Part shown: piece after piece, positions 13,312 through 16,774 of the stretch
Layout: each line of letters starts with the position of its first letter
How positions within the stretch are numbered: the first letter of the stretch is position 1
Assembly: GCA_002928515.1 (NCBI GenBank)
Contig: PERI01000005.1
Coordinates: 124,001-188,000 of the forward strand
DNA: 64,000 nt
Direction of reading: 5' to 3'
DNA from: Hyphomicrobium sp.
GTDB taxonomy: Bacteria > Pseudomonadota > Alphaproteobacteria > Rhizobiales > Hyphomicrobiaceae
Made by a program: the position numbers and the translations under genes
The notes under the pieces: generated by a model
Seen by the model: only the letters and a program-made list of their open reading frames with translations
Databases searched by the model: none
What the model was told of the DNA's origin: nothing

Positions 13312-14694
13312 ATGTCCACAAGAGAACAAGGCGCTGCAAGCCCGATCGTCGAAACACGTGATGATTTGGTAGCGTGGTTTGCTGTCGGCGAGAAGCCGAA
13401 GTCGCAATGGCGCATCGGCACTGAGCACGAAAAATTTGTCTTCAAAACGGGATCTCTGGCACCTGTGCCTTACGACGGGCCATCGGGCATCAAAGCCTTG
13501 ATGGAAGAATTGATACAGCGCTACGGCTGGCTGCCAATCGTCGAGAGCGGCAACGTGATCGCGCTCAAGCGACCGCAAGGCGAGAAGGGTGGGACCATCA
13601 GCCTTGAGCCCGGCGGACAGTTCGAACTATCTGGTGAACCGTTGGAAACGCTGCACGAGACCGCAGCGGAAACCGAACAGCATCTGCGTGAAGTGATCGA
13701 CGTCGGCGAAGATCTCGCCATCGGATTTTTAGGTGTCGGATTCTCGCCGAAGTGGCGCCTCGATGAAGTCCCGACCATGCCCAAGCAGCGCTATCAAGTC
13801 ATGAAGCGCTATATGCCCCAAGTCGGCAGCCGTGGTCTCGATATGATGTTCCGCACCGCAACCGTGCAGGTGAACCTCGACTTCGCAAGCGAAGCCGACA
13901 TGGTGAAAAAACTGCGTGTGACGCTCGCCTTGCAGCCCATCGCCACCGCGCTCTTTGCATCCTCACCCTTCACCGAGGGCAAGCCGAACGGCTTTCAATC
14001 GATGCGCAGCGAAGTCTGGCGTGACACCGACAAGCGCCGCACCGGCATGCTGCCATTCGTGTTTCAGGACGGTATGAGCTACGAACGCTATGCCGATTAT
14101 GCGCTCGATGTGCCGATGTATTTCGTATATCGCGACGGCAATTACATCGATGTAGCCGGTGCATCGTTTCGCGATTTTATGGCTGGAAAATTGAAGGGGC
14201 TGGAGGGCATCCGGGCAACCGTGGATGATTGGTCGGATCACCTGACAACACTCTTTCCGGAAGTGCGCATGAAGCGATTCCTGGAAATGCGGGGCGCCGA
14301 CGGAGGACGCTGGCAATCGATCACCGCGTTGCCAGCCTTCTGGACTGGCTTGTTATACGACGAGGCAGCCCTTGAGATGGCCTGGCAACTCGTCAAGGAC
14401 TGGACAGACGAGGAGCGCGAGGCGCTTCGCCAAGAGGTTCCCAAATCCGGCCTGCAAACCAAGTTCCGCACGATCAATGTTGGCGAACTCAGTCGCGAAA
14501 CCTTGCGCATTGCGCGTTTGGGATTAAAAAATCGCAGACGGATCAATGCCAAAAATCAGGATGAGACGATATATTTGGCACCGCTGGATGTCATAGCTGG
14601 TAATGATACGACCGCCGCAGATCACCTGATTATGCGCTTCTCAGGTCCATGGGGCGGCAACATTGACCATATATTTGAAGAGTTTGCGTTTTAG
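13312..14694 (+). CDS. gshA: Glutamate--cysteine ligase, alphaproteobacterial/plant type
   Basis: This enzyme makes gamma-glutamylcysteine, the first and limiting step of glutathione synthesis. The 460-residue protein matches the GCS2 class shared by alphaproteobacteria and plants rather than the enterobacterial form. Examples are WRIGTEHEKFVF near the N-terminus, GGTISLEPGGQFELSGEPLE, FSPKWRLDEVPTMPKQRY and the C-terminal FSGPWGGNIDHIFEEFAF. No gshB is present in the window. It is followed by about 115 bases and then the small cysteine-rich gene on the same strand; whether they share a transcript is not clear. Confidence 0.95.
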   Translation: MSTREQGAASPIVETRDDLVAWFAVGEKPKSQWRIGTEHEKFVFKTGSLAPVPYDGPSGIKALMEELIQRYGWLPIVESGNVIALKRPQGEKGGTISLEPGGQFELSGEPLETLHETAAETEQHLREVIDVGEDLAIGFLGVGFSPKWRLDEVPTMPKQRYQVMKRYMPQVGSRGLDMMFRTATVQVNLDFASEADMVKKLRVTLALQPIATALFASSPFTEGKPNGFQSMRSEVWRDTDKRRTGMLPFVFQDGMSYERYADYALDVPMYFVYRDGNYIDVAGASFRDFMAGKLKGLEGIRATVDDWSDHLTTLFPEVRMKRFLEMRGADGGRWQSITALPAFWTGLLYDEAALEMAWQLVKDWTDEEREALRQEVPKSGLQTKFRTINVGELSRETLRIARLGLKNRRRINAKNQDETIYLAPLDVIAGNDTTAADHLIMRFSGPWGGNIDHIFEEFAF

Positions 14695-14808
14695 TCAGTA
14701 TGGCCGACCTGCGACCGACACCAAGTCCAGTTCAGCTTGTGTTCATGGTCAGCAGATTATAGCCCAATGATTATTCCGGCCGATGGGGCCTTGAGTGGGA
14801 GGCGACCC

Positions 14809-15024
14809 ATGCTGAGAGGCAATTTCGTGAAAACAGTTTTTGCGTGCATGCTTGCCATGTGCGCGGCAATTTTTAGCGGTCGTTCGGTCGAAGTGGCCCA
14901 AGCCGATCAGTGCGTGCAGCAATGTCGCTCAGCGCACAACCAATGCCGTGTTGCGACCAAAGGGTCGTCAAGCTGCGATAGTCAGCTTCAGTCATGTATG
15001 GACTCGTGCCGTCGTCGCCGTTGA
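14809..15024 (+). CDS. Small exported protein with symmetric cysteine ladder
   Basis: A 71-residue protein. The ATG at 14809 is chosen because a good GGGAGG ribosome-binding site lies seven bases upstream; the in-frame ATG at 14737 lacks one. Residues 1-33 look like a Sec signal peptide (basic start, hydrophobic VFACMLAMCAAIF, cleavage after AQA). The mature part is only about 38 residues with six cysteines spaced CX3C-X6-C-X9-C-X6-CX3C, a perfect mirror. Two helices each bearing CX3C would form a disulfide-stapled hairpin, like the twin-CX3C fold of mitochondrial small Tims, though no homology is implied. It ends in four arginines. I do not recognise the family; function unknown. Confidence 0.7.
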   Translation: MLRGNFVKTVFACMLAMCAAIFSGRSVEVAQADQCVQQCRSAHNQCRVATKGSSSCDSQLQSCMDSCRRRR

Positions 15025-15301
15025 TACAACAAAAGCGAGCGATATTCAGGTAAACTAAGCGCGCTCACCTGACGTGCAGTCACACATTCTGTCACATGAA
15101 AAATCAGTCTGTTGCTGGAGATGCCATCGCATGCGAATATGCACGCGTCACATCAGAAAATCGAACCGCAGATATCGATTAGCAATGTCGGTTGCAACCT
15201 GCCGCTGTTCGCTCAAGTAAGCGACCGCCTGCGCAAGGAAGACCGAACATAAGATATATCGGTTGGCCTTCGACTTGGTGCCGGATGATGGAGTGTTTTG
15301 C
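15025..15301. other. Intergenic region upstream of glcD
   Basis: About 277 bases without a convincing gene. The opposite-strand open frame here has no family resemblance and overlaps the glcD start. The region should carry the promoter of the glcDEF-cobTS operon, but I cannot point to convincing -35/-10 elements or an operator palindrome. Confidence 0.4.
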
Positions 15302-16774
15302 ATGTCGCTCATCGCTATGCCGGAGCCGGATAACGGTGCCGTTAGAAGACGGGCCGAAATCATCGAAGATATTGCAGCGCTCGTTGGCCGCGCAGCACTG
15401 ATCACCGATGATGATGGACGACGCGCATTTGAAACCGATGCCCTAACGGCCTATCGAAGCGTGCCTTTGCTCGTCGTCCTGCCGCGGACAACAGATGAAG
15501 TTTCCAAAATCTTACGATATTGCAACGACGCGAGTGTGAAAGTAATTCCGCGCGGCGCTGGCACTTCGCTGTGCGGTGGCGCATTGCCGACGGAAGACGC
15601 GATCGTGCTGTGCGTTTCCAAAATGAACCGTATTCTTGAAGTCGATTATGCCAATCGTTTCGCACGCGTTGAATCAGGCATCACGAACCTAGCGATATCT
15701 AATCGCGTAGCCGAGAAGGGATTTTTCTACGCGCCTGATCCATCATCCCAAATTGCCTGCACATTAGCTGGTAATCTCGCAATGAATTCAGGCGGTGCGC
15801 ATTGCTTGAAATATGGCGTTACGACCAACAACGTGTTGGGACTGAAGATGGTGCTCATCGACGGCACCGTCATAGATATCGGTGGCGCACATCTGGAAAC
15901 GCCGGGCTATGACATGATGAGTTATGCGATTGGCTCTGAAGGCCAGCTTGGCGTCATCACCGAGGCGACGGTGCGAATTTTACGCGCAGCAGAGGGTGCC
16001 CGCCCCATGCTTTTAGGGTTTGAATCGCCTGAAACAGCAGGCGCGTGCGTGTCAGCCATCATCGCAGCAGGCATCATTCCCGTTGCTATCGAATACATGG
16101 ATAAGCCTGCGATCGCTGTTTGCGAAGCTTTCGCCCGCGCTGGCTATCCGCTCGATGTTGAAGCGTTGCTCATCGTTGAGGTGGAGGGGTCGGAAGCAGA
16201 AATCAACGCACTGCTCAAAAAAATTGCTGAGATCGCCAGAAAATTTAATCCAAAGACTATGGAGATCAGCGCCGATAGCGATCATAGCGCTCGAATATGG
16301 GCGGGGCGAAAATCCGCGTTCGGCGCGATTGGCAGGATTTCAGATTACTACTGCATGGATGGCACCATTCCGCTTGGCAAGTTATCGCACGTGCTGACAC
16401 GCATCAGCGAAATATGTGCCGCGCGTGACTTGAAAGTAGCAAACATCTTCCACGCCGGAGATGGTAATCTGCACCCACTTATTCTCTATGATGCCAACAA
16501 GCCGGGTGAGACGGCAAAAGCCGAAGCAGCTGGCGCTGAAATTTTGAAACTGTGCGTCGAAGTCGGCGGATGTCTGACGGGCGAACATGGCGTCGGCATC
16601 GAAAAGCGTGACCTCATGTCGGTTCAGTTCTCACAAACCGACCTCGCCGTACAAATGCGATTGAAGAGTGTTTATGATCCAGGCTGGCTGTTGAACCCAG
16701 CCAAAGTATACCCGCTCGATGCCAGTGAACCCATGCGCGATGGCGTTCGCATTTACGCCAGTGAAGCAGCCTGA
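15302..16774 (+). CDS. glcD: Glycolate oxidase subunit GlcD, FAD-linked oxidase
   Basis: FAD-binding catalytic subunit of glycolate dehydrogenase, which oxidises glycolate to glyoxylate. From the ATG at 15302 it has 490 residues. The type 4 FAD domain contains VIPRGAGTSLCGGALP, ITNLAISNRVAEKGFFYAPDPSSQIACTLAG split across the flavin site, and SGGAHCLKYGVTTNNVLGLK. The C-terminal domain shows NIFHAGDGNLHP and GGCLTGEHGVGIEKR, both typical of GlcD. It leads a tightly packed group with glcE (13 bases downstream) and glcF. A TTG at 15263 or ATG at 15317 are alternative starts. D-lactate dehydrogenase of the same superfamily is the main alternative, but the trio with GlcE and GlcF argues for glycolate. 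Confidence 0.93.
   Translation: MSLIAMPEPDNGAVRRRAEIIEDIAALVGRAALITDDDGRRAFETDALTAYRSVPLLVVLPRTTDEVSKILRYCNDASVKVIPRGAGTSLCGGALPTEDAIVLCVSKMNRILEVDYANRFARVESGITNLAISNRVAEKGFFYAPDPSSQIACTLAGNLAMNSGGAHCLKYGVTTNNVLGLKMVLIDGTVIDIGGAHLETPGYDMMSYAIGSEGQLGVITEATVRILRAAEGARPMLLGFESPETAGACVSAIIAAGIIPVAIEYMDKPAIAVCEAFARAGYPLDVEALLIVEVEGSEAEINALLKKIAEIARKFNPKTMEISADSDHSARIWAGRKSAFGAIGRISDYYCMDGTIPLGKLSHVLTRISEICAARDLKVANIFHAGDGNLHPLILYDANKPGETAKAEAAGAEILKLCVEVGGCLTGEHGVGIEKRDLMSVQFSQTDLAVQMRLKSVYDPGWLLNPAKVYPLDASEPMRDGVRIYASEAA

Follow-up and report, generated by a model that had tools for sequence, protein, structure and literature searches.

The Hyphomicrobium DNA analyzed here encodes a short protein whose six cysteines are arranged in a mirror-symmetric spacing that is not due to chance. 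The protein carries the hallmarks of export, and its mature part is predicted to fold into an antiparallel pair of helices, which its cysteines would staple into a three-rung disulfide ladder. Members of this protein family are nearly universal in one bacterial family, yet none of the libraries searched has a model that fits them, a gap that is probably due to the protein's short length. On balance, we favor a reading in which the exported and oxidized hairpin serves as a passive, very stable, cationic binding scaffold in the periplasm or envelope.

The Gene and Its Product

The positions of the gene, its parts and its neighbors are collected in Table 1. Translation of positions 14809-15024 (+) of the window, meaning the whole 64 kb stretch of DNA that was analyzed, yields MLRGNFVKTVFACMLAMCAAIFSGRSVEVAQADQCVQQCRSAHNQCRVATKGSSSCDSQLQSCMDSCRRRR followed by a stop codon. 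A hydrophobic signal peptide with an A-Q-A end precedes the mature part, DQCVQQCRSAHNQCRVATKGSSSCDSQLQSCMDSCRRRR. The cysteines C35, C39, C46, C56, C63 and C67 are separated by X3-X6-X9-X6-X3, which reproduces exactly the CX3C-X6-C-X9-C-X6-CX3C arrangement after a signal peptide given in a preliminary description of this DNA. A GGAGG motif is located ~6 nt upstream of the ATG and is found at a similar position in many Hyphomicrobium relatives. A promoter scan of positions 14600-15310 found none. Terminator-like matches near the gene fall inside the signal-peptide codons and were set aside as apparently spurious.

Table 1. Positions of the features discussed (window coordinates, except for the last three rows, which are outgroup loci)
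Feature	Position	Strand	Basis
gshA (glutamate-cysteine ligase, PF04107), upstream neighbor, 114 nt away	13312..14694	+	
Shine-Dalgarno-like GGGAGG 5' of the ATG	14797..14802	+	Sequence
Whole ORF, 71 aa plus stop	14809..15024	+	Translation, homologues, pN<pS
Predicted Sec signal peptide, residues 1-32, probable cleavage after A-Q-A	14809..14904	+	Sequence; member features
Predicted mature protein, 39 aa (D33-R71), basic tail RRRR	14905..15021	+	AlphaFold2 (AF2)
Predicted helix 1, residues 34-50, bears C35, C39, C46	14908..14958	+	AF2, helix 4-20 of model; 40 degree arc
Turn KGSS, length-variable region	14959..14970	+	Loop-length counts, column profile
Predicted helix 2, residues 55-70, bears C56, C63, C67	14971..15018	+	AF2, helix 25-40 of model; 40 degree arc
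glcD (FAD-linked oxidase), downstream neighbor in Hyphomicrobium	15302..16774	+	
Thioredoxin-like CPYC protein, outgroup	L107:5414-6037	+	
Thioredoxin-like CPYC protein, outgroup	L032:4117-4755	-	
Thioredoxin-like CPYC protein, outgroup	L030:3864-4604	-	

Considering all frames of the 64 kb, the window protein is the sole case of a palindromic six-cysteine run of fewer than 45 residues. When six cysteines are placed at random along 36 residues, 0.7% of the placements have palindromic spacing. Under the same random model, palindromic spacing combined with confinement of both arms to a helical stripe of at most 40 degrees is expected at about 9e-5. The mirror symmetry of the window protein is thus not a chance arrangement.

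Distribution and Selection

Protein searches found relatives across the genus and family, including Filomicrobium and other Hyphomicrobiaceae besides Hyphomicrobium itself. In the GTDB family to which the window belongs, 96 of the 103 genomes gave a hit with a search profile made of 23 mature domains (alignments for both searches and folding were restricted to mature segments), and these hits cover 23 of the 25 genera. Nearly all genomes of this family gave one match each, and the window's own genome holds a single copy. At least one genome scored as lacking the gene, G035, carries a CX2C variant (L034) that was missed at the profile threshold, so the count overstates how often the gene is truly absent. 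In an order-wide sample, the profile matched 17 of 249 genomes, mostly of the own family, while samples of the class and phylum gave next to no further matches.

Scanning genome contigs with the single protein found no relative, because the sequence outside the cysteines varies; a diverse alignment contained no stretch conserved enough to scan with. A DNA pattern scan of the order and class returned mostly repeat noise, along with a few real candidates. At the codon level, pN never exceeded pS in 138 equal-length genus pairs (mean pN 0.20, mean pS 0.68). The gene is under purifying selection, which supports that it is coding.

A diverged six-cysteine protein, CRAKCGEEEAACLKRTSNKSQCGGKAQACMSKCK, and a close relative, both spaced 3-6-9-6-3, are encoded by two alphaproteobacteria of different families (L222:4998-5198, - strand; L221:4998-5492, - strand). 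Longer exported proteins bearing a six-cysteine hairpin motif near the C-terminus occur in two genera of one family (L223:4959-5444, - strand; L224:4974-5540, - strand), where their genes lie between metabolic genes. The motif is preceded in these proteins by a Pro/Gly-rich stretch with repeats of the VSPFPIAP or VGPFPxPG type.

Conservation of Cysteines, Turn and Tail

The cysteine pattern withstood the check that the preliminary description had proposed, conservation of the spacing among orthologues: across 89 distinct mature sequences, none of the six cysteines is ever lost, and the arms always have the form CX3C-X6-C and C-X6-CX3C. Insertions and deletions in these CX3C-type sequences are confined to the turn, which spans 8, 9, 10 or 11 residues between the third and fourth cysteine (C3 and C4) in 1, 66, 7 and 15 of the 89, respectively. 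Two additional lineages (L106; L154 and L034) retain all six cysteines with CX2C in place of the N-terminal CX3C, apparently showing some tolerance in the spacing of that arm. No member has lost a cysteine pair, so that pair loss offers no signal about connectivity.

Besides the cysteines, no column is invariant, and no conserved catalytic residue was found among the columns of the family alignment. The commonest other residues are R after C3, T-K-G, S-P before C4, D/E after C4 and L four positions after C4. They cluster around the turn and would fit a role in helix capping. In 91 of 92 members, the core and the six tail residues that follow it carry a net positive charge. Whereas the tail of the window copy is RRRR, some Hyphomicrobium species add some 20-92 residues in which R, G, P, D and E abound; in L021, L025, L044, L050 and L052 this tail looks disordered and measures 25-92 residues.

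Predicted Fold and Disulfide Ladder

AlphaFold2, supplied with 50 aligned sequences, predicts a helix at model residues 4-20, a turn, and a second helix at residues 25-40, with a mean pLDDT of 90.3. This helix-turn-helix model lends support to the disulfide-stapled helical hairpin suggested in the preliminary description, with disulfides that would form as outlined below. On a helical wheel, the three cysteines of each arm are found within 40 degrees. Only 3 of the 85 possible arm spacings place the cysteines on a stripe of 40 degrees or less, namely (4,7), (7,4) and (7,7), and the two arms of the family use (4,7) and (7,4). The spacing can be put as a simple rule of geometry: the three cysteines of one arm share a straight stripe of the helix, and the other arm mirrors them. 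This rule predicts the disulfide connectivity and is searchable elsewhere. With each arm presenting its cysteines on one such stripe, an antiparallel hairpin would pair C1 with C6, C2 with C5 and C3 with C4. From this geometry and from an eight-cysteine variant, we infer the pairing C35-C67, C39-C63 and C46-C56.

The eight-cysteine variant came from a pattern search and belongs to a genome of another family of the order (L225:4842-5120, + strand, in G185). It is an exported protein of 93 aa with cysteines spaced 3-3-6-9-6-3-3. Folded as a single sequence, it is predicted to form a helical hairpin (block pLDDT 84-92, residues 51-90), and the position of its two additional cysteines is symmetric, which a fourth rung would require. 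The protein might possibly represent a four-rung version of the same ladder, either homologous or convergent. Among the seven remaining genomes of its family, none yielded a convincing second copy. Foldseek comparison with the PDB gave no confident neighbor, only matches at E>5 to ribosomal proteins and similar, 41-residue hairpins being hard for this method.

Predicted Export and Oxidation

Of 92 members, 90 have a strongly hydrophobic 12-mer ahead of C1, and 83 have an A-x-A-like motif near it. The two features coincide at 4.6% of positions in control proteins. DsbB is encoded in the window's own genome. The signal-peptide-like stretch supports export of the mini-protein, and the host DsbB its stapling by disulfides, in line with what had been proposed at the outset.

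Gene Neighborhood

The flanking genes gshA and glcD agree with the earlier placement of the gene between gshA and glc. gshA is the gene directly upstream, in the same orientation, at 66 of the 83 own-family loci whose sequence suffices, representing 17 of 23 genera. It is not adjacent in the other 6 of 23 genera, nor in any outgroup family examined. The 3' side is often occupied by glcDEF or, on the opposite strand, by lutCBA, which encodes LUD-domain proteins (PF02589) and a CCG-domain protein. Convergent lutCBA replaces the glc neighbor in many genomes and is often still convergent in the outgroup families. Beyond these downstream genes, a cytochrome c and a LysR regulator are often found. 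In three outgroup families, the gene is adjoined by a divergent gene for an exported thioredoxin-like protein with a CPYC motif (PF13098), a homologue of which was not found in the window's own genome.

This linkage is old and partly conserved. It is nevertheless weak evidence for function, since lut runs convergently to the gene and gshA need not be its neighbor. With gshA absent beside the gene in six genera and in the outgroups, a link to glutathione can only be tentative.

Proposed Role

In the favored scaffold reading, the mini-protein would be secreted unfolded via Sec, as its signal peptide suggests, and would be oxidized in the periplasm, consistent with DsbB in the genome. It would then adopt the predicted antiparallel two-helix hairpin with three stacked disulfides, C35-C67, C39-C63 and C46-C56. 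The hairpin would most likely act through binding, as a scaffold with positive charge that resides in the periplasm or the envelope of Hyphomicrobiaceae cells, and its partner could be an anionic polymer of the envelope or one of the envelope's proteins. An enzymatic function is improbable, as only the cysteines are invariant and the other well-conserved residues lie at the turn, in positions suited to helix capping. More tentatively, and short of thinking it probable, we propose that the mini-protein belongs to the periplasmic core of Hyphomicrobiaceae as a whole, that its disulfide ladder, with three rungs or, in a natural variant, four, is previously undescribed, and that its role is peculiar to the envelope of this budding group. 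The 39-residue scaffold is probably very stable, and the mini-protein offers a natural candidate substrate for studies of DsbA/DsbB oxidation in Hyphomicrobiaceae.

Several other functions were weighed against this one. A cationic stapled hairpin could be a secreted antimicrobial or antagonistic peptide that attacks competitors in the manner of an alpha-hairpinin; the best PDB profile match is the plant alpha-hairpinin EcAMP1 (E 0.19, non-significant), the mature domain is cationic, and six-cysteine alpha-hairpinins are reported in plants (PMC11591084). We nevertheless consider this unlikely, as the gene is present almost throughout the family, as a single copy and at a constant location, whereas bacteriocins are usually patchy. 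Moreover, nothing beside it was recognized as a conserved gene for immunity, transport or maturation, and no similarity reaches a significant E-value. The tip of the hairpin might instead inhibit a protease or another enzyme, as in alpha-hairpinin trypsin inhibitors, since the turn, R-x-A-T-K-G-S-P-x-C-D, ranks with the best conserved stretches outside the cysteines. Helix capping may explain these residues (C-cap K-G, N-cap S-x-x-D/E), and both the length and the sequence of the tip differ between genera, which makes inhibition highly improbable.

The cysteines themselves invite two further explanations. Reduced thiols of the helical CX3C pairs could bind Cu(I) or Zn in a Csp-like manner, as CX3C within helices fits Csp-type sites and all six cysteines are invariant. 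However, the protein has Sec-like export to the periplasm of a host with DsbB, and disulfide rungs explain the mirror symmetry. His or Met ligands are not conserved (one position is H in 43 of 92 members and otherwise Y, E or F), and no metal-protein match was obtained from Pfam or NCBIfam, the metallothionein hit being limited to 2 of 23 members at E 0.071. Metal binding is thus rather unlikely. A thiol-redox function tied to glutathione, such as a periplasmic chaperone, a disulfide buffer or a thiol sensor, would agree with gshA directly upstream at most own-family loci and with the CPYC protein adjoining in three outgroup families. Yet gshA is not adjacent in six genera and the outgroup families examined, the thioredoxin homologue was not found in the window's own genome, long-conserved gene order could account for the neighborhood, and the Tim10/DDP profile is unmatched. 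Hence, we regard the redox function as quite unlikely and retain the binding scaffold as the preferred reading.

Comparison with Known Families

Searches of Pfam, NCBIfam, PHROGs and PADLOC gave no significant and consistent match for the family, and no paper on this bacterial six-cysteine family was found in the library of literature searched. A match to PLA2G12 (E 0.0078, 2 of 23 members) was dropped as the would-be catalytic His is not conserved.

The mitochondrial small Tims, to which the preliminary description had drawn an analogy, carry CX3C motifs 11-16 residues apart and have only four cysteines. The likeness lies in the twin CX3C on two antiparallel helices and in oxidation in a periplasm-like compartment, both predicted here. 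The analogy nonetheless turned out to be weak: in the family's commonest form, 23 residues separate the two CX3C motifs, two further invariant cysteines stand between them, and the helices lie inside the ladder, with no long helical arms outside the disulfides. The profile zf-Tim10_DDP (PF02953) matched 1 of 23 members at E 0.27 and did not match the window protein at E<=10.

CHCH or twin CX9C proteins of the Cox17 and CHCHD4 type have CX9C arms and two disulfides. They resemble the family in its predicted disulfide-stapled antiparallel helical hairpin, and differ from it in that the family has CX3CX6C arms and three predicted rungs; Pfam CHCH gave no match at E<=1. Bacterial copper storage proteins (Csp) bear CXXXC sites on the helices of larger four-helix bundles. 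The family shares CXXXC motifs on helices, but is a predicted two-helix hairpin with Sec-like export, and neither the window protein nor the alignments matched a Csp family in Pfam or NCBIfam.

The closest architecture is that of the plant six-cysteine (6C) alpha-hairpinins. Like these and the four-cysteine (4C) EcAMP1, the family is small and apparently secreted, with a predicted helix-loop-helix, symmetric cysteine arms and a variable turn. The 6C fold is matched by prediction (AF2 helices 4-20 and 25-40, pLDDT 90), together with the signal peptide features. Unlike the plant proteins, the family is bacterial, is encoded by a single-copy conserved gene and shows no significant sequence similarity to them. 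The published 6C motif is CX3CX3C-X4-20-CX3CX3C (PMC11591084), whereas all 89 CX3C-type members have CX3CX6C-X8-11-CX6CX3C. With its arms spaced differently, the family is best described as a variation on a known architecture and not as one of the alpha-hairpinins.
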